Assembly (NCBI GenBank): GCA_949710005.1
Contig: OX453273.1
Location: 8,835,246-8,899,245 of the forward strand
Reading direction: 5' to 3'
Origin: Ricordea florida
Taxonomy: Eukaryota; Cnidaria; Anthozoa; Corallimorpharia; Ricordeidae
Length of the DNA: 64,000 bases
The first letter of the stretch is position 1, and each line of letters opens with the position of its first letter. The notes beneath the pieces are model-generated. The model did not search any database and was not told where the DNA came from. It saw only the letters and a program-made list of their open reading frames with translations. Shown one piece after another: positions 9,531 through 43,622 of the stretch. The translations under genes were made by a program, and so were the position numbers.

Positions 9531-9959
9531 TATGAAGGCCCGTTCTGGTCAAAATTGCATGATTAATTTTTCCCTCTTGATGAATTAATTTGATGAGTAC
9601 CTGCTATTAATATTTTGTCTGTTTGTAATTATTTTTTCCTATGCCTGTAATTATTTTCGTGTTCTTTTTAACTTTTCCATGCGTCACAATTATTTTTTCC
9701 TCACCAGGAATTAATTTTTTTATGTGCCGTCTTTATTATTATGCTTCTTTGAAATTATTTTTGTCCTTTACACAGATTATTTTACGGTTGCGGATTAGTT
9801 TTTTGTGTGCTATAATAATTTTTTTGGATAATTAATTGATTTTGTCCTACGCAACTCATAATATAATGATAATTTAATTTTTTCCATTCGAGAATTATTT
9901 TTTTGTTAGTCATAATTATTTTTTCGTAGTTTTAGAAAATGTCCCATAAGCCTCTGCGG
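9531..9959 (+). repeat. left terminal inverted repeat with iterons
   Basis: An AATTATTTTT-like motif recurs at roughly 9561, 9583, 9604, 9627, 9647, 9686, 9707, 9732, 9751, 9775, 9794, 9812, 9829, 9857, 9892 and 9912, mostly 18-25 bp apart, near two helical turns. The mirrored arm at 11652-12080 carries the same array. Open frames found in both arms are simply copies of this repeat. Confidence 0.85.
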
Positions 9960-11632: not shown

Positions 11633-12176
11633 GTTTGTTTTACATGCATTACCGCAGAGGCTTATGGGACATTTGCTAAAACTACGAAAAAATAATTATG
11701 ACTAACAAAAAAATAATTCTCGAATGGAAAAAATTAAATTATCATTATATTATGAGTTGCGTAGGACAAAATCAATTAATTATCCAAAAAAATTATTATA
11801 GCACACAAAAAACTAATCCGCAACCGTAAAATAATCTGTGTAAAGGACAAAAATAATTTCAAAGAAGCATAATAATAAAGACGGCACATAAAAAAATTAA
11901 TTCCTGGTGAGGGAAAAATAATTGTGACGCATGGAAAAGTTAAAAAGAACACGAAAATAATTACAGGCATAGGAAAAAATAATTACAAACAGACAAAATA
12001 TTAATAGCAGGTACTCATCAAATTAATTCATCAAGAGGGAAAAATTAATCATGCAATTTTGACCAGAACGGGCCTTCATAGACTATAGGTTTACACTCGA
12101 GTTTCATCGCAAATCGCAGTCACGTGCAATGGGGAATACCGCAGACACGTAATAAGGGCGCAACCTTCTTTCTACG

Positions 12177-15612: not shown

Positions 15613-17607
15613 CTAGGTTCGCTTATATACAGGACCAAACTTTTTCATATAACTTCGAATATATTCTTTAGTCTTGATTTTCACGGAGTCCGTGCACTGA
15701 AGGGTTTCTTCATCTGTGAGGTGACTGAGTTCTTTCATGAGAATTCCGTGAGTTAACTGGAAAAGCAAAACACCTCACTCAGTCTCATACTCTCTGGGGC
15801 ACCCAACGAGAATATAGTTCAAAACCACTTAAACAAAGCATTGTTAAAGTGTTTTAGTATTTAAAAGGTTGATTTAAGCATATTTTTATCCCCTAAAATT
15901 TTTTAATCTGTTCGGATTTCCTAGCTGAGAGCCTTGTGATCCGAAAATTATAGCGATCAAAACTTATCTTTTCGAAAATTTCAGCCAGAAAAAAGGCTCC
16001 CGAAAATTCTAGGTGACCTTTTTACGTTAAAAATCCGTTTAAAATGGGCAATGATACCATTTTTTAGATGTTCGAAAATCCTAGGAGAGGCAAACAAGCA
16101 AGAATTTTTTTTAACAAATGTTCCGAAAATTCTAGATCACAATCGTCTTCCGAACAGCTATTTTCCGAAAATTGACGTTGGGTGCCCCTGCTGTAACGCA
16201 GTTAGCTAGAACGCCAAGCAACTCGAATTAACAGGGGAATATAGTTTCGTGACATTAAGAATCGAGTTGCATGGTAATACAGGCTCACTTGCTTAAAAAT
16301 AAAATCTGACATAAAAGCTGACAAAGAACAAATCCAACAGTATAGAGCTTGGATAACGTTAATCACACATTTAACCTAGTGGTTGATTAAAAACAAAAGT
16401 GAAAACACCTGCAGCGAAAGAAATGGCAAACTCTGAATCAATAGCTTTCAACATGGGGCCCCTTACTCTAGAGACCCGGTGACTTTAACAGACCCGGTTC
16501 GCTTTTTCATGGCTATTTCATGATCGCAATATTTACATTTTGTCGGTTTAAGCCAGGCGATTTTAAGTTTACTTAAGGGTTGGGCTGGTCTGTGCGTCAA
16601 GAACTACACAAACGTTCGCTAGACTACGATCCAAAAATGGACCTTCGGACCCATATAGTTTACGGGACGTTCAAGAAACAGGGCCCTGTTCCAGTTTTGT
16701 GAACCTACCTTTCGAGCTAAGTATTTAAAATCCTCCGTGCTCATGATTCTACCACATTTACAGTCCACTTTAAAGAACGGATTTAGACAGTTCACGACCA
16801 CATTAGACAGCTGAAATGAAGACAACGACGCATTAGTAGAAAATGGACGTTTTTAGGACCAACACAACTTTGAAACTTTCTAGCCGAAGGTGGTACTGCG
16901 ATTTTACCCACAAGTGAAAAAGTTAGAACCCCACACATTATAGTAAAACAAACAGTAGCAGAGTACAGTACTTTTAATAGAGATGTTAGTGTTCGCACGA
17001 CCAGGCTAAGCAACATGCTCAGGACTCCTACAGTAAAACTTGAAAGTACAAAAAGAGCGCTTTTCTACCACGGCCGTATAGTTTTTAACAATCAGTGTAA
17101 TACTTATACTTTTTATTTTTTTTTCTATCTATTTACCTGTTTATTTACATATTTATTTATTTATTTGTCTATTTTATTTTGTTACTTGGTTATTATCATA
17201 AGTATTTTATTGTAAATAATTGTAAATAGTTACATATCTATATTCACTAATAATATTTCATTCTAGTTTTTAACGGCCTCCATTGATAGCAATATTATGT
17301 GTATGTAATATTGAAGGATTTTTATACCGTTGTTAAATAAAGGGATATATCTATCTATCTACCTACCTACCTACCTACCTACCTACATACCTACCTACCT
17401 ACCTACCTACCTACCTACCTACCTACCTACCTACCTACCTACCTACCTACCTACCTACCTACCAACCTACCTACCTACCTACCTACCTACCTACCTACCT
17501 ACCTACCTACCTACCTACCTACCTACCTACCTACCTACCTACCTACCTATCTACCTACCTACATACCTACCTACCTACCTACCTTCCTGCCTGCCTGCCT
17601 GCCTGCC

Positions 17608-17661
<54 letters not shown>

Positions 17662-18654
17662 TCTATCTATCAGTAGCTTTCTGTAAAATGATCAGAGCTT
17701 ATTACTACTTACCACTAGTCTACTACTATCACAGTTAAAACTGGTAATACAATTATCATTAACATGCACCTTCAGTCTGAACATTTCCCTGACTTTCTGA
17801 TGGAGATTGGAGGAACTGTGAGATGAACCTTCAAGAGGAAGTTCTCCCCCCCTGTTGGCCGTAGTATCTGCTGCAGCTGTTGTATATGCCAAGGTTGGAC
17901 TCTCAGGTGGGGTACCGGGTGGGGTGCTTGGCGTCTTGGCTGCTTTCTTGCCTTTTGATCGTGGTGTCGTTTGCTGGGGGTAAAAAATTAAACATAAACT
18001 GCTTGGAAATTGACTATCGAGGTTACGCGGGAAAACAAGGCAGAACCTTGAACAGCAGTACCTTGCGATGTATCATGATTTCAAAGATTTCATATCATCA
18101 AAACATGGAGGAGACATGTCAACTTGCTTGTAAATATGAGAAAAGGCGTGGGCGTCTTGCATGTTGTAATAACAGCCCAAATTGCCCCTCATTTGCAAAC
18201 TGCAAAATTACATGAGCATTTTGCTACACCGCACAAATACCTCACCCGTATGTTTTAATTTGATACATGAAATTGAATTGTGTCAGGGTGTAGCACGCGA
18301 TAAAAGTGACCGGAAGTGGACCGTCATAAAAAACAGAAATGGAAGTCCACAACACGTGACTTTTGACCTACGTCACTTACATCAGGGAAAGTTTCATAGA
18401 CAGGTTTTCTCCTGTACAGCTTGTTGTGCGAAAAGAAAATGCTGTTTTGCTTCGCCGCAGTGTGTCCAGGGTGGTTTCATGGCGCACGGGTAAGAATTGC
18501 TACACTGATAAATTCTCTCACCTCCTCTATATCACTGTAGCCAAGGGACTTCACGTCTCGGCGCTGATCGTCACTCGTTTCGGAGGAACGTGGTCCTTTC
18601 TCGGGTGATGGTCTGGTCGTACTCTCCCATCTCGGAAGTTCCCACTGGGTTTTC
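15613..18654 (-). CDS. SETD2: SETD2 exons 20-23: WW end and SRI domain
   Basis: Exon 20 completes WW with [10 protein letters not shown]. Exon 21 is Thr/Pro/Lys-rich ([13 protein letters not shown]) and ends in VREMFRLK. Exon 22 encodes [14 protein letters not shown] and [13 protein letters not shown]. Exon 23 encodes [13 protein letters not shown] and [18 protein letters not shown] before the TAG at 15613-15615. These are the helices of the SRI domain, which binds the phosphorylated C-terminal repeats of RNA polymerase II. Confidence 0.95.
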
Positions 18655-21600
18655 CTACAGATGTTTACGCATGAATATGATAAGTAGTGCGCTACAGCAC
18701 AATTCGATGTCAACCTTCACCCTCCCATAACAAGTCTCCTTAGTCAGTCACGTACAATTCCTTGCATGTTACTTTGAGGAGTTAAGAATTAGATCAATTC
18801 TAAAGCCCTCTGTTGGCAATCTTATCAATGCTCATCGCTGGTCTGCTTGACAACACATCTACCAAATCGCCAACACAGATCATCAGTCGAACGTGCACCA
18901 TGTAGAGTAGCCTAGCAACCCGTGTAAGTCCTCTGATGTGGTGTTGACTTACTTTTTAAAACACAATAAGCTACACGCACTCCAAATAATACTAAGGGCC
19001 GAATATTTAAACTAGGCATTCAGTAGGAAGGCTTACCACTTTTCCTGTGTGAACGGTTGGGTTGGTTTTCTTTTTCTTGCTATGGTTACGCGCTTCCTTT
19101 TAAAACAATTTTGAACACAGGTTTATTAGACAGCCCGAAACTGTAAATGCGCGGGATTTTTTCTTTACCGCCAAACAGAGCGGTTACACGGGACTGGATG
19201 ATTTTTGGAACCAGGCCGGCCAGGGCAAGCCAAATTTGGCGCGCTTAAGCTTAACAAAACGAGAACAACTCCTCCAAATAAGAAAAACTACATATCCAGA
19301 TATAAGGGTTTTAACTTGACGGCAATCATTTACTACGTTTAACACAGAAATCTCACCGTGTCAATGCATGGTAGTAGTAGACCTTGCCCTGCGGATCCGT
19401 TGCCGACTTCCAGTGCGGTGGTAAATGCGTTAGTTTATTCCTGACGGGCGAGGGTGTACTCGGCTCGGATCCCGATGGTGTGCAATCCATTGTCTCGGGT
19501 CCCTCCGACGATGCTGACGTCACAGTCCGACTCTGAGGCGACATGGCTTTTGCGGGAGATGGAGATGTAACATGCAATGCACTTGCCAACGGCTGCACTG
19601 CACTCTGATTTGATGACTGAGTAATCTGCTGATCTGGAAGGATGTTGGCTGGCGGCGGCTGGGGAGTGAACGGAGTAAACTGGTTCTGCTGGGCGGGAAA
19701 ACTCAGCGGAAGACTCTGAGGCGGTCGTACAACGCTTCCTGGCAAAAAGTGAGACGGAGGAGCAGACGACACACTTGTTGGAAACTGTGGCGGTGGAGGA
19801 AGCCTCACAAACGGTGGAGGTTGAACCCGGGGAAAGAACACTGTTTGATTGGTGGGAAGAGGAGGTGGAGGAACAGTCTGCGTTAATACAGGCGATGGAT
19901 TCTGCTGCTGAAAATTCGGCGGCGGAACCTTGCGAAAAAACTCCGCTGGTGGGATGTTAGGAGGAGGCACACTAAAGTTTGGCACAGGAGCAACAGGAGC
20001 AACAGGTGCAACAGGAGCGGCAACACTTCTACTGAAACTTGTTGTACCCACATTTTGAGGCGGTGGAACTTGTTCGCGGCCTCCTTTGAGACTAGGAAAA
20101 TACGGAATTGCTTGACAGTTTTGTAGGGTATTTTGCACCGGTTGTGAATGAGGTGCTCTCCAGTGTGCTGCTCCGCGCTGCTGACCAAAACCCATTTGTA
20201 CTTGTACGTTGGCATTGCCGAAGTTCAAGTCTCCTGGCAAGTTTCTTTCCTGTTGTTGTAGAAACAGATTCTGCGTCCTCTTTTTCTTTTTCTTGTTATT
20301 ATTGCGCGCTACCTTTTGCTGAGCAAAGTTTAACCCCTGCTCCGCACCAAAGTTCATGCGTTGCTGATAACCAAACGTTTGCATCTGCGATTGAGAGAGC
20401 TGTTTTTGAGGACTATCAGACGAAATGGACAGGCCAAATTCAGCTTGAGGGTTTGACGTCTCTCTGGCTATTCCCTCTATGGCGTCATCAAACTCCAGTG
20501 AGCTGAAATCTCCGGCTCGTGTCAAAGGAAGCTGATCCTCAGAGCTTTTCACTGTTGTTTCCGCACTACAAGTAATTACTCCCTTGGAAGCAAGAACGGT
20601 CCCAGATTCCCTGGGAAATAGGGGTCGTGGGGAGCTGGAGTCGAGACTCTTCATAATGATGTCCAGCTTGCCAGGAGATTTCATTTGCTCAATTTGGCTC
20701 CTGGCAAGAGATTGATTGCAATTAATATTAACTTATGTTGTCCTGTTCAGGAAGCAGCTTTCATACTATGGGAGTTAGATGAGTTTCATTGAGTCAAAGA
20801 ACGCTTGCGCGCGTCCAAGGGTCACTTTGGCACGAAAGCCTGACAACCATTGTCACCTTTCAATGAGTTGCAGCGAAAATGTGGCAGCGCCGATCAGAAG
20901 TTCCCAAAGAATGCAACTTAAACTATTCACAATTACGGAACTTGCCAACCTTCTAAGTCAGCTCAACTGTGCCAAGATTAGGTGCTACTACTAAATACAA
21001 CGGTATCATATTTGAGTGAATCGCAATGGGGCGTCCCTCTCCATTATTTCTTGCAGGAGTAGGCAAAGCTCAGACTACTATTTCAAGTGTGCCTAAATTC
21101 TCCTCACCTGCTTCACTGAAAGCGAATGAACATTGTAAGGTGAAGTTGCATACTGGTCACTTCTGAGAGTAAGAGGGTAAATAAGATGCTTCACAGGACG
21201 TTATCTACATTTTCTTGATTTCATCTTGGGCACGTATCCATAGATGATTCTGCTACTCATTCAAACACCTAATGTGGGAGTATCCATTCTATTAATCACT
21301 TACGGGAATTGCGAAGCCTAACGATTTCTCGTGTCAAGCTTCTGCCTAGCGCTTCTGAGAAAGACAACTTACCTTTGCTGTTCACCATCTGTACTTCCTG
21401 GGAAAACAAAGGAGACAAGAATAAACGGCAATGTTCACCGACAAATTTGTAATGACTTTTATCAAGTGTAAAAAGGATCCGGAGAGCAAGTTTCAATAAG
21501 TTAACCATCGTCCAAAAAAATTATCAAAAAAAAAAACAAAAAAAAACAAAAAAAAAAAACAAAAAAACAAAAACAAAACAAAACAACAACAACAAAAAAA

Positions 21601-24600: not shown

Positions 24601-27600
24601 TTACAAATTTCAATTATTTATTGGTTAACTCCTCTGCAGTGCGGTTTTTTGGATTCGTAATAGTATTCAGATTCAACTTAAATTCTTTTGGACTCCAAGA
24701 ATCACACAATCTTGGACTTAACCTATGAAATGCACTTTGAGAAAATTGTGCCATTCTTACCTGCCAATCTCCTATGCAATACAAAACTAAGGAATATAAA
24801 AAATTGAAAACTGCTATGACTGCAACAAGCAATACTTACCTTGAGAGAACTCCATGATTTTAACAAGTCATTTGCGATCAAGGCCACGCCTACATCACCA
24901 TTCTCTGAGGATCTCTCGTCTTCTGACTTCCCATCATCCTCTGAGAGGTCATCTGAAGACTTCCCAGAGCTCTCTGCAACCATACTGGCTTTCACTGCTG
25001 CAACTGTATCCATCTTCCTAGCAGTAAACTCAGCAACTTCCGCATCCAGAGAGTCATCGTCTGATTGGTCCTTGTTAGAACACTGCCTCTCAAATAATGG
25101 TCGGTGCTCCTTGACTTTCTCTTTGTCAAGAGATTTTGTCAAACTCTGGGTGTCATAGTCAGTATCTTCTGTCCCTGCTGTACATTCAGAGTAGGCAGGG
25201 CTGTTGCCATGGGAATCCTGCCCACTGCTGGATCCCACCTCTCCCAATGGCGAAGTGGAAGCAGCCCACTTTCTTACCACTTTAATGACCTTACTGTCCT
25301 CTAGTTGATTCTTGGTGGCAATCGGTAGATACTTGAGCGTTTCCATTAGCTGGTGATCGGCAATGCATCGAGTTAGCAATTAAGGTAACTATGACTGGTA
25401 AGGCTTGTTGAGATACACAGTAAAGAATGGAGAAAAAACACTGCGAGAGAAGTGGTAAACGTCACCCATGACATGATGCACATACATTTACAATTACATG
25501 AATGTAAATATAATTATTAGAATTTCATATAAGTGCACTGCAGTGGAAAGAGATTTAATAAATAAAAGATCCTTACAGTTATGTAGGCAATGTTAAGCAG
25601 TTACAAAGACCTGAAAAAATTCAGGCTTGAACAGGATTTGAACCGATGACCTTGTGACACTGGTGCAATGCTCTAACAAACTGTCAAAAGAGATGACTTT
25701 GTATATATTTAAATTTATGTTCACAATTTCACATTTGTAAATATCACTGATTTAAGTTCAAACGTCCTCTCTGTAAATACCTCTAGTTTTCTTAGCTGTT
25801 AGTAAGTGATTAGTTAATTGCAAACGACCCCACAAGCTCATGTAGCTGTATCTATCTATCTAGCTATCAAGTCAACTGGGAACTGGTCATTTATGAGTTC
25901 ATAGCCATTAAAGATGAAGAAATGAACGTAAATACTGTATAATTTATGAGAATTTCATACACTGCGGTAGAAAGATATTTTAATAATAATTTACAATAAT
26001 TTACAATTACATTTTATAAATTAAACCCTTTGAGCCTTAATGTCAAGATTTACACCTGTATACATATTCTTCTTTGTGATACCCATTCACCAGTAATGAG
26101 AATTTTTAATTTTATATCTTCACAGTTCATTATTGGTGATCATTTCCTAATAACTTATATTTTCCCCATTGGTATTCATTACTATAAACTGATATCACTT
26201 GGAGAAAATGGATACTTGGACAGTGCTCGAAATTAGCGGTTGCCTGGTTGCCCGAGACAACTAAAACTTCATTCGGGCAACCATTTTTTAGGAAAAATGA
26301 AGGGCTAGTTGCCCGAGAAGAATTCGTCGGACAACCCAGGAAAAAATTGAAGTACTTACACTACTGGGATGCGTAACAGAATAAAGAACAGAAGCAATAA
26401 CTTGAGACACGAAAACAGCTCTAAATGCGAGGTTTATCTCCTGATCAATACTGATAGATGGATGAGGATCCATGACAATTTGTAAAAAACAGGAAATGGA
26501 AGGTTGTAACCCTTAATTGAACGCATTTCGTTCGATTCAATAAGACACGATAAGCTTCTCGTGTTGTCTTCAAACCCTGACCTCCTCGAAATATTTTGGT
26601 GCACACGTATTTAGTCTTTTCTGGGGCATTCTGGGATCCGTGCTTACAGATCTTTCAAGTGACAATTTTGAGTTAAGAGTAATAATTGTTAGCTTTATAA
26701 TGAAGTAAATGGGTGGGTTATACTTACTTTGTTTGAAATATTAAATACTTATTATTTGCAGCACTTCGAAAACTCTGGAAACAGGGCTTACTGATAGGGG
26801 TATTATTTCTCTGGTCAAACCCTATAACTAGGCAAAAATCATAGAACATGTTAAGGGCAACCAAGTCCTTATCAGGGCAACCAAAGTCAGGGGCCAGGTT
26901 GTCCGGCATTTGCCATAAGGACAGCCGGGATTTTTTTCTTATTTCAAGCACTGCTTGGAGTTCGAAGGGTTGAGAATGATTCAGTAATACTTTGATCTAT
27001 TTAAAATATTTTGTCAAAACAATCTCGGTATATAAGAATAAATCATATAACTGCACTGTACTGCTGTTAGAAACACACCCTGTCCATGTAATAGAGAATT
27101 TGACCATATAAGAATGAACAGAATTTTAGCAATTGTGATATAACCTAAAAAAAAACAGAGTGGGACAAAAATCTTTCTAACTTTGCAACTTAGCCTGTTC
27201 TTTTTCCAGGTTAAATAACAATAATTGCTAAAATTGTTTACATAAGGGTCATGTGTTGTTTCTGTAGAACATGTTACCTCCTTCTTAAGTTTTGCCTTTT
27301 TCCCTCCACCATCCACCATCCAACTCCAGAGTAGTGACAGCCCTTGATACCTCAAGAATCCCCTAAGACATGACTGATCGCTGGTGTGCTATGGACAAAC
27401 ATGGACATGTTTTTGTAGTTAATCACAAAAAAGTCTAATCCAGATTTAAACATTAAATACATGTAATCTCAACAATGGAAGGGGTGATGAATGGTCCATT
27501 AAAATTTTTAACTGCTCACAAAATTTTACCTTTGCTCGATTTGCTTGCAAAATTTAAACGAGTGCTCGCTTGCTCGTGCTCCCTAAATTTTTGCAGTTGC

Positions 27601-30600
27601 TCGCATGCTTGCAAAGCAATTTTTTACCTCTGCTCGTGCTCGGAAAAAAATAGCCTGCTCGCATTGCTCGCAAATGCTCGCAAAGACCATTCGTTACCCC
27701 TCATGGACATGAGATACTCTTCAGCATCTCTCAATTAGTTCTACCTGTTTGACCATCCAATAGACCTATGATGCCTTTATCAAAAGCTTGACACCAACAA
27801 CAACAAGTTTTATTTGTTCACATCAGATGTAGTTATTACTTAGCTGGCTTGCAAATAGCAAAGAGCTAATAACAGCAAGTCAGGCAGTTGACAAACAATT
27901 TTACACAATTTTACACAGTAAGTAAATATTCACATAAAATAACAACAAGTACCGTAGACATAACACTTTGTGCTTTCAAGCATCTAGGTAAAGGAGTAGT
28001 AATTAGATGCCTGGATTTGGAGCACAAAAACGTCAAAGATCATTCTGTGTGAATCATGAAAGATCCTCCTCCATATTGCACAAAGTACACTGAACAACAG
28101 TGACAATACCTGCAAAATTTTGAGCAGCATCACTCTTTGCTTCGTGGTCTCGGCTCGCACCATAAGTCGTGACAACTTCAGCGCCTGGTCACTGTTGGTT
28201 AAGCCTCTCTGTTCACCTAGAAGTTTCTCCACTTCATCTTCAAGCTTCAAAAAGAAAAAGAAACAGTAATACAGTACAGTAATAAAAGAAGTTTTGATCC
28301 AGTTCCTACCACAGGAAAAAATCCTAAATTCCCAAAATTGGTAACTAAATGGTAACTCAAAATTACCAATATAAAACCAACAATTTACCAAAATTAGGGA
28401 AAACTAAAACTGGACATTGCAAGAAGGCAACTTGGTAAAGGTAACTTCCCAAGTTTAATGTTTTTGTAAATTGGTAAAACCTTGGTAAACAGTGTTTTAA
28501 GTGCCAAGTTCAACTTTAATTTGGTATTACCATGGAAAGTGCATTGGTAAAAACATACAAAGAAACAAACAGTAAAATCACAAGCTTGGGATAAACTCGG
28601 TATGGAGAATTTTAATTTGGGAAAAACTTGGTAATGCTGGTGTTAAAAATGCCAGAATTCCCAGTCTGATTTGATAAGGGAGGTAACCCACTCATTTGGG
28701 AAAATGTTGGGAAAACTACAACTTTTAAAAAGCCAGGCAACAGACTTAAAATCCCAAATTTGGGATGAGAGTTAATTTGAGGAAAACTTGGGAAATGTTG
28801 GTGTTAGAAATTGATATGTCAGAATTCCCAGTTGGATTTAATTTGTGGGGGTATTAAATAACTAAGTTGGGAAAACTACTGTTAATAAAGCCAAGTAACT
28901 GACAGTTTACAACTTGGTATGCAGAGTATTTGATTTGGGAAAAACCTTGTATTGTTAACATTGGACTTAAAAAATGCCAGAATAATCACAGTTCATGCAA
29001 TGACAGACATTAAAATCCCAAATTTAGGATGAACTTGGTATACAGAGTATTCATTTTTGAAGAACTTGGGAATGCCTCAATGCTGGTGTTACACAAATGC
29101 CAGATTATTCCCAGTTTAATTAAATGAAATGAAATGGTAATAAAACAAAGCACAGGGGTAGCTTATTTCCATTCAACAAGCCAATCTGTTCTTTTGATTA
29201 ATCAGATGCAAAACCAATATTCAAGCTTTGTAATCAGACAACGGAAATTGGAAAAATTTTCAATCTTCAAAGTCTGATTTGTAAGAAATTAAACCACAAA
29301 GATGTTGCATGCTTTTTAATTAAGGATTGCTACTTTGATGCAAAGAATTATGCTGGCTTTGTATCACATTAAACTTGAGATCATAATTATAATGTTCCAA
29401 TTCACGCTTCAGAATTGTCTTTTTGAAGCTGTTTACCAGTAATGAAAGATGTGTGGTAACTTGGAATTCAAAGTGTGTCCTGTAATTCCCACATTCCATT
29501 TGACATCCAGCTTCCCTGAAGTTTCTTTATTATGCAGTCCCAGTGTACACTATGGATAGTGGAAGTTTCCTTAATGAATTTGTTTCCCCCTGGCCATCTT
29601 GGATGTTCCTTTAAGAAATGAAGTCCAACTGTCTTATCATCTTCTTGAACAGAAATAATTCTGGCTATCCACTGAGCATCATTTTCACCAAGAATGAGTA
29701 CCATGTCTTGTTTCTTTGGGTAAAAAGGAACAACCACAAATGTTTTATGAGATGGTAAAGAAGGCATGTCAAAGTCTATTAAGACAAAATGATGAGGAAT
29801 GGATTGGTCTGGCCATGGATAGAGTATTACTTTTCGCAAAACATCAATACTATTCACCAATTGAACAGTTTGGGACAAACAAAGGCATTGGCTTTGGCTA
29901 CCAGGGTGATATCTTTTCTCACCATTGTCATTTGTTGCATGCTGGTACAACTGAACTTCCACAAACAAATGCACACTTTCTGCAGCATCGGCACTCTGAA
30001 TCATCATTGAATGAAAGTCACTTATTCTGCCTGTTCTTTCCTCATTGTTCACTCGCAGCAATGCATTTTCTCCTTTTCTGTATAGCATGCTAGGGACACC
30101 AGGTTCTTTTGAAGGCTTTAGAAAGCTCTTACATCTTTTAGTGGCTGATGGTAGAGTGTGTAATTCAATCTGTGCCCCACGAGAAGAAATGTCCTGGAAT
30201 ATTTCTTGTCGTTGAGATTCAGAAATCTCTTTAAAGCCTTTGTTCTGGCTACCAATTAGTATTCCACCTTGGAGATGAACAAGATTGTCACATGCATGTA
30301 CAATTAGATAGTCACCTTTGACTAATGAGGAAACTTGTTTTAACTTTAGGGCAGAATCAATTTCCCTCTGTGTTAAAATGGGTGTGTCCTTTTCCCTATT
30401 TTTGGCAATATCCAAATTCTGAAGGACTTCTCTCATCATTTCATTGTCACTGTAAGTCTTCTCGATGTTGCGGTGATTTGTTGATTGGTTAACATACCGT
30501 TTAACAGCTCTTTCTAGGTCAAAAACCCAGTAATTATCTGGTGAAGAAAAGCGGTAAATATCTTCAGCAACATGAATCAAATTGTGCTCTGTAATGACAC

Positions 30601-33600
30601 AAGCAGCCAAACCAAATGTCTCCTCCACCATAATGTTGTGACGCCAGGCTAGTTTACTGAACAGTTCGATATCCTTGAAAGTCCAGCCATGAGTACGACA
30701 ACAATTATAAACCATTGTAACCATCTGCACAAGTAGTTTCCAACACTGAAATTCATTAGCAGGCATTTGGTCATACAGAATAACTTCAGAGGCTGGAAAG
30801 CAGAACTTTTGATAGTCTTCTGCTTTCCAGTATCCAAGTCGTGCTGTTATTCCACTTGGGTACCGAGAGGCCCTCATTTCTGGAGTCCATGGAAAGTTGG
30901 AGAGTCTTGATTCAATGAGGTCTTTGTTTACATTTCCAGTATCAAGTAAGCACCGCAAGTGCTTCTTGACTGGATTCATTGGTAAGTTGTGCATCAAATC
31001 AATGACAGTGTCTAACAGTACATCAAACCCATACAGCTTATAAAGAGTAACAAGTTTGCTTAGACCAGTAAATCCACTGTCTCTTGAGACTCTATTCCAA
31101 GCTGCTCCCACTTCTTCATCTGCTTTCTTTATAACAGGAATTGACTCATCCATGGTTCTACTTGCCCATTTGTATCTTGCATGATACCTACAGTTTCCAT
31201 AGTAATAATGAGGTAAACCTGGTTCCAGTGGTGTACCAGAGACATGACATCGACAGCAAGATTTCTTCCCAGTACGTTTTACTTTAGTTACCTCACTCTG
31301 TCCTGGGTGGTAACCAGTCCAGAGCAATATAAGATGGCGAATGACTGCTATTCCACTCTGTATTTCAAAGTCAGGAAAGTCAGCAGCATAATCAACTTCA
31401 ATTCCCTCAATGAAGCCATTCACAATTTCATCAGTCAAGGGTGTCAGAAAAGGGTCTAGGAACTCAGGGGTTTCATCTGGGGTTTTGAAACAGGGCACAA
31501 ATCCCACTACAAATACTTGGTCAGCATGATTTCGTTTGTCTTTAGACATGTTTGCAATTTTCACATCAATTACTCCAGTGCTATGACCCCCAGATGTTCC
31601 AAAGGGACTGAAACCATCCCAGTGTGCAATGTAAACAATGTTTCTAGGATCTCCATGTGCATACTTGGGTACATGATTAAACACAATTCGACAATTAGAG
31701 CAAATAATGTCAACTGTGCCATCTTCAAGAACATCATGAGAAGCAATTTCTGGTGCAGAAATTACTGTTGTCTGTTTTAACTCTTTGCAGTGTGGACAAA
31801 TAGCAGGCAGTAGCCATTCAATGTCCCTGTCAAAAAACCATGAGTACTGGGAAAAGCGTGAGCCATCCCACAGCTCTTTTTTGATTGGCCAACCCTGAGT
31901 TTCACCTCTTTCATAATTGTTAAACCAGTGTTCCTTCTGTCTCCAGTGATCAAGCATGGCACTGCATGTAACTAGATTTCCATACCACCTTTTCACTTTG
32001 TTGGAAAGCCCCAGGTAATAGAAATAAATAGAACCAGGTTCTCCACAGTGCCTACACTTATCAAAAGACGATGTCATTATGTCCCACTCTCTCGGATGTT
32101 GGTCACTCATACAGATGAAATAGTTCTTAGGTGATTCATAACCAACTTTTTTCAGAATGTCCTGAGTTTCTGACCAAGAAGTTGGCCATCTGTCCTTCAT
32201 TTCCTGTTCAGTTATAACAAAGTCTTTGGCCCATTTCAGCCAATCCTCAAATGACTTTATAGAATCTCCTTGTTGTTGCTTTAAGGGTAATGCATTAAGT
32301 ATGGCCTTGACAATTTTTTCATCCAATTCCGCTTCACTTGTCTGTGTCTCTTCGTCAAAAAATTCTGGAGAAGGGCATTGAAACACACTATGGGGATCTT
32401 CATTATTACCAGCAGTATCACTACCACCACCATCATTATCATCATCATTATCACCATCATCATCATCATCATTGTCATCAATGTCATCATCATTATCATT
32501 ACAGGAAAGTTGTGTGCCATCCATAACATCCTCATTACCTGTTTGGGAACAAAAGGGAGAACTGGTTGTAGCTGTTAAAAGTGCTAGCACATTCACGAGA
32601 ATTCCCTTAAATTTGTCAAATCGATGTCTGCTTAAGAGCATCATGGTGACAAGAAACACAGGACATCACAAACACAGTTCCTGGGGTAGACAAGATTGCA
32701 TCATGTTGCAATTACTTCACTGATCAAATTTCTTATATTTTGTTTACGCAAGGCAAGTGACTGAATTAGTGAGAAACTGAGCCCCACACAGTATTAACTT
32801 TGTGGTACCAAGTCGTTTATCATTAATTATGCATAGCTTCGTGCATTTACCTGTGATTTGAGGCCCTTCTCCACTTCCTTCGTCACCCCTCGTTTCCAAC
32901 TGTTCGTTGTTTCTATGAATGTGCAATTCTTCATCTGCTTTGCGGTGATACTGATAAGTTGAGCGAGAAACGGCTTTTCCACTACAATTGTAAACGATAC
33001 AGTAGCAATGGGCGTGTCGATAATCGCGGGCATCACATCGACACGAGGTTGCTGCAGGCATATAAAACTCGCAAAGCTCTCGATGGCATGAAAATCGATC
33101 ATATTACAACAAATTCTTTGTCCCAAAACAGCACGGGTTCACAAACGAAGGACCCGACGGCAACACATCAGCATTCTCGTCCCCAGATCGAGCCCTCTTT
33201 TTTGTCACTTGGTCGACGTTTGACTCGCGTTTGATTGTCGACTGGGTCGTCAAAATGCGCCTGTGGTTTAGAGTTCATCTGCTCTGTATTCATTTTGATG
33301 GGCTAAAAGTTGAGTTTCAGACGTGGCCAGTTTCGCTGTCAAAATTTCGATCCATGGTCATAGAAAGAGCAATGGAACATTTTAAAGACTCAAAATGCAT
33401 TTTCGTGGAAGAGGAACTGCACAGGTTGAGAAATGAACTAAGCGAGATTGCAAGCGTTTTAGAAGATAAATGTCGACTTTTTGTCATGGGAGCTGGTTCC
33501 GAAAACCCAATAGAAGTGAAAGATATGAGTACTGTCCACTGGGATGCCGACATTTTCCTTTCCGTCCGCGAATGGAATGATGGATATGACACGGAGATTG

Positions 33601-36600
33601 TGTCGACTGATCAAGATTCAGATGAAGAAATTGAAAATTGTGAAGGATGGCTGCTTGAAGGTGAGAAGTACTAAAAATAGTTTGAGTTTTGATTTTGGTT
33701 AGCCTTCCTGTGATTATATATATAGGGAATAATATCTCCAAGCGCCAAAGTATTGTCCTCTTATTTTAAATAAACACACTGCATGTACGAATAGAGCTGT
33801 CAAAATGGCGCGTAATTATCGAAGGCGTTGATTGGCTCTCGGCAGAAATCCCATCTTTCTCTCTGCACCGCGCCGTGTTTTGGCGCGCTTTGTGGCTTTC
33901 GGTTTCGGGGAAGACAAGATGGCTTCGAGCGGGCAAAACAGCGCAAAATCTTCTTGTTCATCACCAAAGAGTGCAAGTACTTTAGACCAAGATTTGGAAG
34001 GTAAAATCTCGTTACTTTATTAGCAGTTAGTTTCAAAGCTTTTAACTATGGTAAGGTCAGTGTTGATTTTGTGTACAACACGATGTTTTCCCCTCCAGGA
34101 AACGTCTGTTTCCAAGTTTAATTTGAGCTACGAGGCCTGTGGTTGTCTTACCTGAATCATTTTTGCCAAAATTTCTTTAGAATGGGACACAGATGACGTT
34201 TTGCAGTGGTTAGACAGCCAAGGGTTAGGTGGTTTTAAGATTGGTTTTCGAGGTAAGCCGAAATCTTTTTGTCGTCACTGTTAAATGAAGTCGATCTTGC
34301 GTGTATGATAGTTCTGACCACTCAAACCAAAGCTAATGAGGAAATTAACTTTCTAGAAAAACATGTCAATATTCATTTCAATATATATTAAACTACATCG
34401 CAATAAAAGTCAAAACACATCACACACATTTTTTTGCTTGTACCCAACGCGAACTGTACAGCTTTTTTGCTGTGATTTAGAGAAAATTCTGCCAATATAA
34501 GACTTTTCGGGAAAGTGTGAATCGAGAATTTAAGGAATAAAATAGAACGTTGGATTGAACTTAAATCTTTTTTTTATGTTGGAATATCTTCGTTGTGTAA
34601 ATTTGACAGATTCAATATATCTAATTTCTCTTTTTATGCACAAATTTGCACCATTTTCCCCGTAAGCAGTTTTTCAACACACTTTATTTTTGACCTTGTA
34701 GAACAAAAGATTGATGGGATGTGTCTGAAAGAAGGATTATCAGATGCTGAACTAAATTGCTGCAAGGTTGTGACAGTTGGAGACAAAAAAATGATCAGGA
34801 GAAAACTCCAGGAATTAGTAGGTATGTTTTTAATACAAAGTTGGCAGATGTTACTGAACAAGCAAAGAGTAATTATTTAAAACCCAATTAAATAAAAACG
34901 TCAAATTTCTTTCAGGTGATGAGTCGACACCAAAAATGCCAAGACTACACAGAAGTAGGAAAAAATCCATTGTCCTCTCCCCAGAACAGAAACAGGACTT
35001 ACTTCGAAGGTAAGACTTATTTTGATTACTATTAACTTATTTTCTAGTGTCCTTTAGAGCACTGGAACAGAAATGTCACTAAACTCTTTCACTTCTAATA
35101 GAACTGAGAAGAAATTCACCTTAGTAAATGACATATGACAAAGCTCTGAAAAAGAATTAGCCAATTTCATACGGTGAGGACTGAGTATATGGTATATTCT
35201 GACTACCAGTATATGAGTTTTGTGTTACCATCATCAAATTTGAGGGACTCGTACCCAGAGCTCACAGTATGAAATTGGCTAATTGCCAGGCTTTAATTGG
35301 ACTTGAAACCATGGCTTTTGCAAAATACTGGTGCAAACACTCTACCAGTTGAGCTATCAAGCCACACAGTTGTGAACCAAGTCAAATTTTTAATTCAGTA
35401 ATACCTGTACGAATGAGACAAGAAGTGGGTATAGCAATGTATCAAGGTAGTTAATTATCTTATTTGCTTATAGACGGAAACAAGTTCACAGGAAAACGGT
35501 AACTGCATTTCCAGGAAACAGTATACCTATATTACGGGGTAACCCATGTGCCCAAAAGCAATTTGAAGAACTAACAAAAGAATGCCAAGGACTTCTGAAG
35601 GCTGAAGTTGGTTATGATGAAGGTGGGAATTAGTTCTTATCCTGCTCCTGGAACTTTGTAATTATTTGAAATGGATACACATGTTGTTGACCTTAAAGGG
35701 CCTATAGCACAATATTGCACCAATAACGCTTGCCACAAACCAAAAAAAAGGGACAAGCAGGAAAATAGCTCTGGCAACAAAGTTTAGTGATAATTGGTCA
35801 TGTGACCAGTTTATGCAAAGGGCCTACTATTATATCTTACTTTATGATCATTAATTTTCTTTTAGAGGAACTAAGGCGGCACATCAGATCAATACTTGAC
35901 GAAAGACGAAGGATGGTAAGGGAAGGATATAATTATGAGGTATGTCAGCACAGGTGTGCACAGAAATAAGGGTACATTACTTTGGTAGAATCCAAGATTG
36001 CATTTTTAATCTCAGACCACACAAATACTTTGCTCCCAAAGAATCAAAGAATTATCAGAAAGTTGATTTTTTTTGCCATGACATCTCAGTAAACACTGTT
36101 CATGCTAAAAATAAAATATTATTAGGTATTTATTTTCCATCAAAGTTTTGCTAGACAAATTCATTGCAGTGTACAAAAGCCTTCTATACAGGCTGGCATG
36201 CCAGTTAATTCAGTTTTTGTTAATTTCTTTTAACCCAACATTCATTTGGTGCAATATTTACTTCTATATATAGGAAAAAAGTTCTACTGATGAAGAAAGT
36301 AAACCCTCACAAAGCCAACAGGATAAAGAGAAGGGAAGTTTATCTGACAATGGCAGTTATGAGGACGATGAGTACAATTACTCACAGAGGCCAAAAGAAA
36401 CAGAGGAGAAGAGCAATGATTGTAGAGACACAGTCATTCAGTTACCAGGTAACATGATGAGTATGTAGCAAGCTGTTTTCAGTTCTGATTTTTAGACCAA
36501 TTTACTTTACTCACAGCTAACATTTAAAATCTCCAATTATTTTCATTTCTCTCCTTCAAGCCTGCAAATAACTGTTGGTCATCGGTCAAATGACCATTAA

Positions 36601-39600
36601 ATTTCAGATTTTGATGGGCATAGGCGTGGGCTGGTCATTCACTCTTAACTTCTTGCAACCACTTTTTGGCACTTAGTACTTGTTCCTCTATTAGTTAAAG
36701 AAGAAACAAATGATGCAATATAGCATTTTAAATTTTTAATAGGAGTTTTGAATTGCCATTGCATAGTTGCATGAGTTTTATAAGTTCCCGTATATAGTAC
36801 ATGCTTTTTAATTTTGTTGCTTTTTTTGCAGGAGGTGAACAAGCTTCCTCAGTACCATTAACAACGGCAGAGACAATTGTATTAGCTTATTTTAACAAGG
36901 GCTACACAAAGGAGGTGAAGAAAGACCTTCACCTAATGCCTGCTTGTAGAGAGTTCAAAATGAAGAACATAAAGTCAAAAGACAAGTCTGAGTTGATGAT
37001 GTTGTTAGCCAAGGAACTTCTTTTAAGTAAACACATAATCTTGAAAGATGATGCTGACTTTTATTGTCTGCACAGACAGAGTGTTGTTGTCAAAAAGGTA
37101 CCCCAAGTGTAGCACAGTACATTGTACTTTGTAGGTGTCACTTAAATGCCCTTGTTCATGGGTATTCAAGTATGTTTTAGTGCCTTTACTATTCTAGACA
37201 CAGTCCAAGAATCATGTTGTAGTTTATAGTAAAATTGTTAGCAAGTAGAAAAGCGTTAACCATAAGTTGACTTGTTTTGTTATAGTTGGTGAGAGTATAT
37301 AATTATGATGTTCCCTTTGGGAGATTAGTTGTGGAAAGAACCAGTAAGGGACAATTTGAAATTGCAAGAACAAGAGTTTTATTATCATCAAGTTTTGTTG
37401 TATATATAAAATAATAAAAGTTGGAAACTGACACATTTTGTTTATTTAATTTAAATAGAATATAGTCAGAATATTCCTTGAATATGATAATTTAGTCAGA
37501 TGGTGAAAAGTAAACCACCATCTTGGGTAAATGTAAATTACCAAGATAAAATGAAATTAATATTATCATTTTGGGGAACTACTTTACCATAGAATTTCCA
37601 ACGTAAACCCAACTTTAGAAGATTTAAATATGGTAGAAATCACCGGTAAGTCAGGGGAAATATTTGGTAATTCAAATTGCCAAGGTTTGATCCTTTAGCC
37701 GTGGGATCTTTTGGGAAATGACACTATTTACCAGGAGGTTACCAACATTATTTCAACTCTGGGACCAAAGCTTTTTCCCCTGTTGTTTTGGTATTTTTGT
37801 GATAAAAAAATGTTATCATCTTGGAAAAAGTTTGGTAAATTTGATTTCCAAGGTAATCCCAGATTAGGATGACTCAGTTTTACCAAGTCTGGGATGTTGG
37901 GAATTATAGTATCTACCAAGAAATTACCAAGATTTACTCCAACTCTGGGACCTTAAGCTTGGGTTTTTTACCCCGCTTATTTTGGTATTTTCTTGGCAAA
38001 GGAAAACTTTTCATCTTGGGAAAATTTTGGTAAATTGAATTCCCAAGATGAACTGAAATTGGGATGGCTCGATTTTACCAAGTTTGGGATCTTCTTGGGA
38101 ATTTGGCTATTTACCAAGAAGATACCAATATTAACCCACCCTTGGGATTTAAGGATTTTTTCCTGTGTATACATTTACAAGTACTAGCTTGAATATGTTT
38201 CTCGTTTTCATTCCACAAGGTAAAAGATGACAGTACCATATTTAACCTTGCATAAGTTGACCTATCAAGACCTAAAAATCAACCCAAAAAATCGCCCTAG
38301 ACTTACACATGGGTCAAAAGCTCAGATCCAAGTATCAGTTTTGATAAGCATAATAATTGCCTTTTAATGTTAACAAACATGTAATGAACAGCAGCACAGT
38401 TTAAACATAAGTTCACATAGTGATCCGTTTCTCTATATCAGAGCTTCATGTTGGAATGCAGCAACATTTATCTGCTAATTTAATGTAAACCTGAATGTTA
38501 TAGATGCTCACTTGCTCAATTTCGTCATCTTTCATGCATCAAACTTCTCTGCTTAGTAACCTGGCAGGTTAGCTTGGCAGCGAGCATGTTTTGACAATAT
38601 AGTGTTGATTGGTAAGTGTTTTTTTTTTTTTTTAACCACTGTGATGGCTAAAATGACCACATACACACTTGTTGCTAAAACAGGTAAAACGTGTGTATAT
38701 GTTGTAGCTCCATTTTTTCTTGGTTTAAATTCTATTTTCCTTTGTTTTTTTGCTATGACAATGTATGATAATGAGTTTGAAACAAAGGAAAATAAAATTT
38801 AAACCAAGGATAAAATTGAACCACAACATATAAAGTATGTGCAATTTAACAAATCGAATGTGGTTTAGCGTTGTCTGTACTCTTGCCAACAACGAGTATG
38901 TGTCATCACATTGGTCAAAATGTTGTGGACTCATGAGGTGTAGCCAAGTGAGTCCACGGCAAATTACAGATAACGCTAAACAACGTGCAGACAATGCTAA
39001 ACCACATTCAATTTGTTCTTTACCACAATAGCAATGTTAAAAAAAGTCAAAGGAAATGTTTTTCCAGAGCGTGACCAAGATCATGACACAAAGAAAGAGA
39101 AAGTGTTGTCTATAACTTTCTCGCAATCTGATTGGTTTATTCCCCAAAATGAGCATTTCTGATTGGCTATTGCCTTGAAGACACATTGATGCGAGCAGCG
39201 TTGTCTAGACTCTTATCAACAATGGCAAATTAGCCAATCAGATTACGAGATTAGTAACAAATTTTGGTAAAAAGTAATTTATTAATTGAAACTTCACATT
39301 GGAACTTGTTGTGATGTGTTCACATAATCCATAATAGCTGAAAGAAAATTGTAAGAAACACAAGATACATTTTCCAAGAAATTCTTTCCTAGAGATTAAG
39401 AAAATCTAGTTTTGGGGTGAAAAAATCCCAGTCATGTCATGATGTATACCGTAGTTACGATGTTGAAAACATTCTTCACTTACCGTCAAGTCATCAAAGT
39501 CATTTGCAATGGCTCTTTTCTTCCGTCTTCTCCTTGGTGAGCTTGTTGAAGGTGTAGCTAAAGGCAAATAACAAAAGAAAATTAATGCTGTGAAAATATG

Positions 39601-42600
39601 ACTTCTTGCTATAACTACAATCCATCAAAATAAGTTATCTTTAATTCCCTAAGAACGAATGCTAGACATTTACAATTCTTCCAGTGGAGTTACGAGCAAG
39701 AATCTTCTTGTTAATCCACTGGTACAAAGGCAGAAGAACTTTCACCTCTAGAAGTCTATATAGTTATAAGGAGATCTTAATGCTTATCTCATGGCTATGT
39801 AAAGAAATTAAATATAAAAGAATAGAAGAAGTAAAGCGATAACACTGCAGGGCCTGGGAGTTACATTTCAGAGGGAAAATCTCTCCGTTTATACCTATTT
39901 TCTCCACAGTGTTTTTTAGTGGAGTTTGCTTCTCTCCACCAATGAATCCACGGCAGTTGGGTGCCTCGCAGTAACAAACTTGAGCTATTTTCCTACATGC
40001 AAGTCAAACAAAGCAAAAAATATTAGCTTCATTCATGTGAGGAAAAGCCACTTGCAAATGCATAGTTTGTTTTTACTCTATTGCCATTATCAAATATTTT
40101 ACATGCCAACCATGAGGACAGCAGAATCTAGTAAACTACTGTTAAGCTACATGCAAGTCAAGTTACATGTACATCAAGTAGACAATCACCAACAATCACA
40201 GACTTTAGTACACAGCTTTCTTTGCATGTATGTGTAGTTTTACTTCAATGAGGCCAACCAGTTAAGTAACATATTTCCAGGTGTACTTCCTTATACTGTA
40301 CATTACTACTGTTCTGTATGTTACAGTAAGTACATATACAAACCCATAACGTTGTAGTTGGTAGTCAAAAGTCAGTTCTGTTCCAGCTGGTATTCTGCGC
40401 TGGGTGAAAAACCCAATCCTGAGCAACCCATTCACTGTCCACTGAATAAAAATAGAATTAATAGTTGGGCTGTATTTAACAGAAGGGGATAAAAAAACTA
40501 CAAGATTTTACACCTGTTTCACATTGATTGGTCAAGGCATTGTCTTGTTTGTAAGGGAAATTAAAAAAGCCATCTTTGCTTAGTCAGCATCTTTGTGCAC
40601 ATTGGTAAATATTTTCATTGTTTCCTTTGAATAGCCCTCCTAATTGTGGGCAAAAGCTCTGTAAGTTAGAATTTTTTAGATTTAATAAAGAATTGTTACT
40701 GAAAATTCCTGTCCTACTGGAATAAAAGCCAAATCTTGTACTTGACCAAACCTCTGGAGCATATCATATGTTACAGCATCTTTTTAAACAAGACTATAGG
40801 ACTTACTCCCCTTACCTTTTGAGTCTCACAATTTGAGTCACAGCTGTGGTTTATAAACCGTGACAAGTTTCCCCTGAATGTTGCATCAATGATCTACGGA
40901 CAGCAGAAAATAATGTAAACTGAAACAACTGCAAATAACAATAATTATAATTATTGTTTTGCATGCAGCCTATCAAAGGAAAAACAGAGTAATACATGTA
41001 TATGATAATATAAATTTGTTCTTTTGTCTCACAATGGAGTCACTGGATGATGATAATAGTGATGTTTGGACTGCTTACAGTAATTAACAACAATCGTCGC
41101 AAAATGGAGGTTAGGTGCCCCAGGAGACTATGGGCCTGAATGACTGCCCAAACCCCCTACCCTAAGAAGACCGCCCAGCCGGCAGGTACTGCCCGCCTTC
41201 CCAGCCATGAGCCCCCCCACACCCTACACCACACACTGGGCACCCGTCACACTGAGCCGAGTTAGTGGAAAATAATAAAATATATAAATAAATAATAAAA
41301 TAAATAAATGAATAAATTATCAACTAGATAACTAATAACATAATAATATATCAATGACAGAAACAATAATATAACTCAAACAAATACCAAAAAAAAAACA
41401 ACTATGAAAAAGCCAAGGGCAATTAATGGGGAGGGAGGGAAACTCGAAGAACGGATGAGAACAACTCAAGAGCAACTGCCAACTTGGAAGGCAAGGTACA
41501 CACTAAAAGTACACAATGCATACGATGAACCAAGGCATCAGGAGAAGACCGCTGGCCGTCGTCCCAATCAACTGCCCCAGGGCTCCGCTGACCATGAAGG
41601 TTACATGCCAAGATGGCTACCTGCTGCATGCCCGAAATGACAATATGCTGCTTTCTTGTAAGCCATCTGTAGATCCAAACACACTGCCCCACATGTGTGG
41701 ACCACTGACAAATATACCAGATGCCACAGATGCCAACTGGTGATAAGATCACCAGTACAAAAAAGCATGCTAACCGCTACAAACGCTAACCGCTACAAAC
41801 GCTAACCGCTACAAACGCTAACCACTACAAATGCTAACCGCTACAAATGCTAACCGCTACAAATGCTAACCGCTACAAACACTGACAACTGACATACTGA
41901 CTGATGATACGCTGACTGATGATACGCCGTAGGATGAAACCACCAAGGGAAAAAACACATAACATTGCTCCTCGTAGTTAACTAGCTTAAATTACATTTA
42001 AGTCTATTATATGTATGTATAGTAAGCCCTATAATTTGCCTTTAATATACATTAAGCATGTGAAAGAACTGGCAACTGGCCAGGAAATTATCTGCAGTCT
42101 TGGTAAAGGGTGGTAATTGGTGCATTGGTGGTAAAGGGTGGTATGATCTGGATTTGGATTTGGATTTGTGATCTGACAACACTCAGACCATGGCACATCA
42201 AAGGATCTGATGAATCCTCTCCCATAATGGCTTCATTGGTTTCTTTTATGTGCCATGATCCATATGATCTTGGATCACAAATCCAATGGCACTGCGTTGT
42301 TTACTTAGACAAGAAACTTGACTCGACTCTGTCTCACTCTACCCAGGCGTATAAATGGCTACCACCAACAGTCCTGAACTAGACTAGCATCCTGTCCAGG
42401 GAGGAGGAACAATGCTCCCAGGTGGTTCATGCTACTGCAACTAGCACAAGCTCTCATTGCATGGGCTTTAAGGCTGGTGTGTACCTTTCCCTTTATCTTT
42501 ACCTATAATTCAATTACTGTAAACACTTACCTCGTCTGCCCTCAGTGTCATGAAGTAGTAGTGCCTTCGATTCTCCTTGTCATAACGTTCTGCTCTTTCC

Positions 42601-43622
42601 TGGAAATCCTTGTAACTGAGAACCTCTCCACAATATTCCATTACAAATTGATTCCTAGAGAGTTACAAAAACAGCCTAATCAGTCAACTCATTCTACAGA
42701 TTGCCAATGGCTCTAGAAAGTGAGTGAAAGCAGCAAGTACGCACTGTTCAAGATCTTCCAAAGTCCTAAGCCCCCATCCCTTGTGCTCAGTTTTGAAGAC
42801 TTCAACCTTGACTCTACAGCCCTGCAAAATAAATAAAAAGTGAGTTTTACATGTATGTTGCATACTGAATGCACTGAGTCTCACAGAGATGGACTACTTT
42901 CTCAAGAAACTGTGCTGACTAGGTTGGGAATTGGATCACAAAAAAATACACAACTGCACCATCACAGCATGGAATGGTGCATGATGAAGTCGTTCTTACC
43001 TGCTGAAATCTTGTATTGGTACAGAACTGTCTACAAGGACATCTGCTATTACTGCAAAGAAGAAACACTTTGTCTTATTCCGTGCCTTGACAGAAAGTGG
43101 ATTGGGACAAAACTGATTGCTTATTACAGATCTGCCAAGTGTGTTCGATAACTTGAACCTTCAATGGAAATTGACAAACGTTTGAGTAAATATTGGAAGT
43201 GCAAGTTATCATGGGTAAAATTATATCAAAAATAACCTGAGGCAGGGTTGGTGCAGTGGTGAGAGTGCTCACCTTCCACCAATGCGGCCCAGGTTCGATT
43301 TCCAGCCCTGGTGTCATACAGTATGTGGGCTGAGTTTGTTGGTTCTCTAACATGCTCCAAGAGGTTTTTCTCAAAGTACTCTGGTTTTACCTTCTCCAAA
43401 AAAAACAAACATTTGATTTCATTTGATTTCAATTCTGCTGTGTAGTGTCCGCAACTAGTACCTCAGTACTTGATACAGTTGACACTCCAATAAAGTTCAT
43501 TATTATTATTCTTTAAGGGAAACAAAACTTGCCTTGAGTTAGCAAGAGTTCTAGTTAGCAAGGGTTTGAGTTATCAGAAGTTGACTGTATATTAACCCTT
43601 TCACTCCCAAGAGTGACTTAAC

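Follow-up and report, generated by a model that had tools for sequence, protein, structure and literature searches.

Here, we describe a 9,858-bp mobile element (28310-38167) found within a 64,000-nucleotide stretch of the genome of the corallimorpharian Ricordea florida (contig OX453273.1; the whole stretch is called the window, and positions are counted within it). The element is probably a full-length two-gene EnSpm/CACTA transposon lodged in an intron of SETD2, whose second gene encodes a SAM-domain protein that would bind the motif arrays inside both ends and help to synapse them. The original prediction for this stretch combined a mobile animal CACTA/EnSpm element, carrying a transposase and a SAM gene between the same ends, which the data uphold, with a possibly still-active window copy, which they do not.

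To look for other copies, the genome (537.8 Mb, 48 contigs) was searched, and the left end was found at five loci: the window and the copies named C3, C1, C12 and C11. The C3 and C1 copies are complete (10,031 and 9,879 bp). In C12, a 4.9-kb insert splits the transposase and the right end is altered, and C11 is a 526-bp internal-deletion derivative that retains about 400 bp from the left end and 157 bp from the right. The inverted ends of the window element pair perfectly (16/16) and have the CACAGG..CCTGTG, that is CAC..GTG, form expected of EnSpm/CACTA. With up to 3 mismatches allowed, a 24-bp end gave 25 listed matches genome-wide, 9 of them being ends of the five copies, vs 0 for the reversed control. 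The 3-bp target-site duplication is exact in three of the five copies (tat in C3, ttt in C1, cta in C11) and agrees in two of three bases in the window; in C12 the altered right end leaves it unscorable. Just inside the ends, 24 instances of TTGG(G/T)A or its complement fall within 821 bp on the left and 21 within 747 bp on the right, while 1,000 dinucleotide shuffles per end gave means of 2.3 and 2.5, respectively, with a maximum of 8 at either end, and none of the 1,000 matched the observed count at either end. In the window beyond the element, the density of the motif is 1.1 per kb.

The element is flanked on both sides by minus-strand SETD2 exons, which places it, on sequence evidence, inside a SETD2 intron. 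Upstream lie the SET-domain exon 42513-42662 (PDB match to SETD2, E 1.4e-11) and a second SET motif near 40860; downstream lie the exons within 24726-25379 (PDB match, E 1.7e-6) and a WW-domain match in the frame 19356-20732. The inverted termini, the matched arrays inside both ends and the nesting in SETD2 had all been noted before, and all were recovered here.

Between the arrays, two genes stand head-to-head, and the 193-bp gap between them is presumed to be their common promoter (Table 1); the exon models of both were built from sequence and homology. The tnp2-type transposase is encoded on the minus strand by two exons (1,093 residues, zero stops). Its N-terminus resembles by eye that of the full-length Exaiptasia protein P0008. 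The best relatives of the element's proteins that carry an organism name come from the anthozoans Exaiptasia, Paramuricea and Actinia. The DDE triad, with C(2)C and H(3-4)H between the second D and E, is present in the relatives, one of which, P0004 (38.9 bits), passes the Pfam Transposase_21 cut-off of 28.6 bits, and membership in this family appears to be reached through relatives only. In a predicted model of P0008, a RAG1-fold match across the catalytic core was found; the window transposase is accordingly predicted to be RAG1-like in fold with additional BAH- and Tudor-like domains, whose positions are approximate, as the P0008 coordinates were carried to the window protein by a constant offset. 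The ends, the length of the duplication, the catalytic motifs and, by way of relatives, the family of the transposase all class the element as EnSpm/CACTA. As a separate observation, in P0036 (Em0003g939a) a transposase-related piece is joined to Pfam PF14291, a hAT-type family (excerpt of PMC3985635), possibly through gene-model fusion.

The partner gene (33255-37112, plus strand) has eight exons and encodes 456 residues with zero stops, so that an open transposase of about 1093 residues and a divergent eight-exon SAM-like gene are present much as first described. Pfam SAM_1 matches its product with E 1.3e-5, and the SAM_1 and SAM_2 scores (25.9 and 24.3 bits) both lie above cut-off; for SAM_2, the relatives P0001, P0042 and P0002 score 37.2, 34 and 29.6 bits. 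In Pfam, only SAM families reach the cut-off in the partner and its relatives, with no Kelch row. The C-terminal domain in exon 8 is conserved in the same three relatives, and it is plausible that the partner is unrelated to the plant second protein. The gene may have alternative first exons: exon 1a, with 12-base margins, is 98.8% identical in C3 and C1, exon 1b is 99.1% identical in both without gaps, and by eye the form with 1a resembles Paramuricea P0002, the form with 1b the N-terminus of Exaiptasia isoform X2 (P0042). A ninth exon (37286-37414) was considered and set aside as doubtful, having a 2-base gap in C3 and C1.

The results showed that the two genes occur together between the same ends, as the original prediction had proposed to check: four of the five left-end loci keep both (broken in C12), and the fifth is the internal-deletion derivative. 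Further transposase pieces occur in the genome at 31-50% identity (at least 46 matches in total, a count that includes 9 from the window, C3, C1 and C12 copies; 43 of 543 candidates scored). Among them is a second family with a transposase about 39% identical and long open frames at two loci (C11:23799334 and C3:26424366). At both, an exon that stands head-to-head with the transposase, about 2.9 kb upstream, shares 40% identity with the SAM protein's middle domain (E 3.6e-12, or 9.7e-18 with a profile), and two exons further upstream match SAM weakly and have the same intron position and phase as the window gene. Moreover, the listings for Exaiptasia give a 408,752-bp contig for the transposase LOC110235289 and for the SAM protein LOC110235292 alike. 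Since the pair recurs at four of five left-end loci, in the second family and in the Exaiptasia listing, we conclude that, as far as sequence can tell, the transposase and the SAM protein travel together. The other listed SAM homologues are P0002, from the octocoral Paramuricea, and P0001, on a 1,211-bp contig. In the protein database, 3 SAM homologues are listed (E <=0.01; best-sharing 7999 candidates scored) vs 39 transposases, a scarcity that poor prediction of multi-exon genes in that database could explain.

Both genes show constraint between copies. In the comparison of the window with C3, synonymous and nonsynonymous changes number 13 and 7 in the SAM gene (ratio 0.14, Fisher p 1.5e-5) and 17 and 27 in the transposase (ratio 0.41, p 0.007). 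The few changes between C3 and C1 (1 and 4 in the transposase, 0 and 1 in the SAM gene, in the same order) do not allow a judgement. These data bear on the view that the element captured the SAM gene from its host as a passenger with no role in transposition. SAM domains are indeed common among animal proteins, and some transposons carry host fragments, but a passenger would hardly be found beside transposases about 39% identical in two families, and by contig listing in Exaiptasia, nor show a ratio of 0.14 between copies; among the 3 listed homologues, where multi-exon genes are perhaps under-represented, none is a named host gene of known function. We therefore regard a mere passenger as very improbable.

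The family has moved recently: C3 and C1 differ by only 0.13% in coding DNA (0.36% in noncoding DNA). The window copy differs from them by 1.3-1.4% in coding and 1.8-1.9% in noncoding DNA. Neither frame is interrupted in the window, C3 or C1, and both genes of C12 have internal stops and broken codons. The window genes had been described as intact and maybe still active; their frames are open, yet the second catalytic Asp is replaced by Tyr (codon 480). This position is Asp in 38 of the 39 aligned relatives, with a gap in the remaining one, and Asp is retained in C3, C1 and C12; the base itself could be a sequencing error. The window also has a private R499C change at a conserved position, where 37 of 38 relatives keep Arg. 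Because of the lost Asp, the window copy is probably inactive, and recent activity belongs to the family, represented by C3 and C1, not to this copy. Open frames that outlast a lost catalytic residue might suggest that the host has co-opted the dead transposase and the SAM protein for a cellular function. However, at 1-2% divergence open frames require no selection, and the codon changes private to the window show no clear constraint on the transposase after insertion (7 synonymous, 13 nonsynonymous), those in the SAM gene (9 and 5) being too few; co-option thus deserves hardly any credence.

Several results weigh against our interpretation. In the second family, the SAM match is under the Pfam cut-off (E 0.013; 16.1 vs 20.5 bits), the C-terminal domain was not found at the two loci, and these loci are 98.7-99.2% identical over aligned stretches and therefore count as one family and one case. 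The 1.5-kb flanks of 23 of 30 distant transposase loci (L015-L044) gave no partner at E <0.2; such flanks are too short to reach an exon lying about 2.9 kb upstream, and longer upstream DNA was examined at two loci. The Exaiptasia linkage is read from an equal listed contig size and near-consecutive locus numbers. Comparisons with C12 give ratios from 0.33 to 1.7 over its two parts, which might fit a decaying copy. On the protein side, the RAG1 fold comes from the model of P0008, an Exaiptasia relative of the window protein, and a PDB sequence search gave no RAG1 match; both the window protein (E 3.4e-4, 20.3 bits vs the curated cut-off of 28.6) and P0008 (25.0 bits) remain below the Transposase_21 cut-off. 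Finally, the model of the SAM protein is of low confidence (pLDDT 57), and a clear fold match to it was not found.

The element would probably work as follows. The transposase would nick at the CAC ends and join them to the target with a 3-bp stagger, giving rise to the 3-bp duplications, while the SAM protein would bind the TTGG(G/T)A arrays inside both ends. Since many SAM domains multimerise, the bound proteins may gather the two ends. Maize TNPA is credited with bringing element ends together, and by this analogy the division of labour could be the same as in plant En/Spm. The putative BAH and Tudor domains may act as chromatin readers. More tentatively, the whole may form a RAG-like two-subunit system in which a SAM partner unrelated to RAG2 and TNPA synapses the ends and the BAH/Tudor readers choose the targets.

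The chief rival role for the SAM protein is the regulation of silencing: it would counteract silencing or regulate the element, by way of host chromatin, methylation or its own promoter, rather than serve as a structural synapsis partner. Maize TNPA switches a methylated promoter back on, and it represses one that lacks methylation (excerpt of PMC1636069). In fungi, TET/JBP enzymes carried by some EnSpm elements are regarded as a means of escaping silencing (excerpt of PMC12730594). Among solved SAM relatives, liprin and SHANK come ahead, followed by weak matches to Polyhomeotic-like 3 (E 0.07) and L3MBTL3 (E 0.28), which would also suit a regulator. On the other hand, the motifs crowd the two ends rather than the intergenic gap, and the partner has no enzyme domain at the Pfam cut-off, so that a purely regulatory role seems to us rather unlikely and binding at the ends followed by synapsis remains the preferred reading.

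Table 1. Features of the element in the window
Feature	Position	Strand	Remark
Left terminal inverted repeat, 16 bp, CACAGGAAAAAATCCT	28310-28325	+	identical in C1, C3 and C12 copies
Right terminal inverted repeat, 16 bp, CACAGGAAAAAATCCT	38152-38167	-	identical in C1 and C3
Target-site duplication, left, 3 bp, tac	28307-28309	.	one mismatch to right copy
Target-site duplication, right, 3 bp, tat	38168-38170	.	window copy
Left subterminal array, TTGG(G/T)A motifs	28326-29130	.	24 motifs in 28310-29130
Right subterminal array, motifs in both orientations	37421-38151	.	21 motifs in 37421-38167
Transposase exon 1, Cys/His-rich N-terminus	33061-32851	-	open frame with GT donor
Transposase exon 2	32538-29468	-	open frame; carries core, BAH-like and Tudor-like regions
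Predicted RAG1-like DDE core	about 32335-30389	-	fold from model of relative P0008
Predicted BAH-like region	about 30286-29782	-	fold from model of relative P0008
Predicted Tudor-like region	about 29737-29519	-	fold from model of relative P0008
Codon 480, Tyr in window copy at position of second catalytic Asp	31310-31312	-	Asp in 38 of 39 relatives (gap in one) and in C3, C1 and C12
Gap between divergent coding regions, 193 bp	33062-33254	.	shared promoter presumed
SAM gene exon 1a	33255-33660	+	ends GWLLE/EW like Paramuricea P0002
SAM gene exon 1b, possible alternative first exon	33919-34000	+	same donor phase as 1a
SAM gene exon 2, first half of SAM domain	34181-34252	+	
SAM gene exon 3, second half of SAM domain	34702-34821	+	
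SAM gene exon 4, basic linker	34916-35009	+	
SAM gene exon 5, conserved helical middle domain	35474-35622	+	40% identical exon in second family
SAM gene exon 6, rest of middle domain	35866-35939	+	
SAM gene exon 7, acidic linker	36274-36448	+	
SAM gene exon 8, conserved C-terminal domain	36832-37112	+	stop 37110-37112

Some further observations were made along the way. The 4.9-kb insert of C12 (L006, L007, L014) has an apparent 5-bp duplication and long frames that look retroelement-like by eye. At L057 (C7:1533883 region), the related end CACAGGAAAAAATACC and its inverted partner bound 222 bp (1501-1722) with tca on both sides, resembling a short element of a sister family akin to a miniature inverted-repeat transposable element. 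The ends CACAGGAAAAAATGCC at L029 (C14:16671339) and CACAGGAAAAAAATTG at L027 (C2:39140597) lie within 1.5 kb of distant transposases, and one end type may perhaps be common to several transposase families; the first of these ends also turned up in the genome-wide end search. Elsewhere in the window, CATAGGAAAAAATAAT forms an inverted pair (9628-9643 and 11968-11983) with 3 mismatches to the element end, which is near chance (4 matches in total, a number reached by 7 of 100 shuffles). A long tandem repeat at 17315-17735 gives LPTY repeats on translation in three frames, and another at 58639-59141 has open frames on both strands, proline/histidine-rich vs glycine/cysteine-rich.

Subterminal arrays are a family-defining trait of EnSpm/CACTA and are present in plant En/Spm, just as they are at both ends of the window element. 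Plant En/Spm is also alike in its CAC-starting ends, 3-bp duplication, DDE transposase and second element-encoded protein (excerpt of PMC4158355). It differs in having CACTA instead of CACAGG ends, and the second protein of the window element is a SAM protein. Maize Spm requires two element-encoded proteins and makes them from one alternatively spliced unit (excerpt of PMC1636069), whereas the window element has two head-to-head genes. Schistosoma SmTRC1 likewise has an animal host, a Transposase_21 relative and inverted ends; however, these ends start with CCC, a 2-bp repeat is found in 7 of 14 copies examined, and the excerpted account does not mention a SAM partner (PMC1636069).

ProtoRAG and RAG1-RAG2 are alike in the RAG1-like fold, which for the window element is predicted, in the adjacent gene for a second protein and in ends beginning with CAC, the recombination signal sequence heptamer being CACAGTG vs CACAGGA here. 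Transib (HzTransib) is a single-gene element with 5-bp duplications, unlike the two-gene window element. ProtoRAG differs in its tail-to-tail genes, RAG2-like partner and 5-bp duplications (excerpt of PMC8289069). A SAM partner without Kelch, head-to-head genes and a 3-bp duplication led us to reject identity with ProtoRAG. We recognised no published SAM partner, or BAH/Tudor domains, in such transposases; Repbase, to which elements of this sort may have been submitted, lay outside the search, and we make no claim to be first.

Recent copies in which neither frame is interrupted render the system experimentally accessible, and the SAM partner permits a comparative question about what such partners do: end binding, synapsis or silencing escape. 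RAG works as RAG1 with RAG2, which reads chromatin, and reader-like domains predicted on a RAG1-fold transposase would offer a testable parallel. The SAM protein would be a third, different transposase partner, present in two families within a single genome and having homologues in a sea anemone and an octocoral. Among working systems, the nearest parallels are TNPA acting with the maize transposase and RAG2 acting with RAG1, and the Spm and RAG transposases have motifs and, by model, fold in common. If the more tentative RAG-like two-subunit reading is right, two-subunit recombinases of the RAG1/CACTA fold would have arisen at least three times, each time with a different partner.

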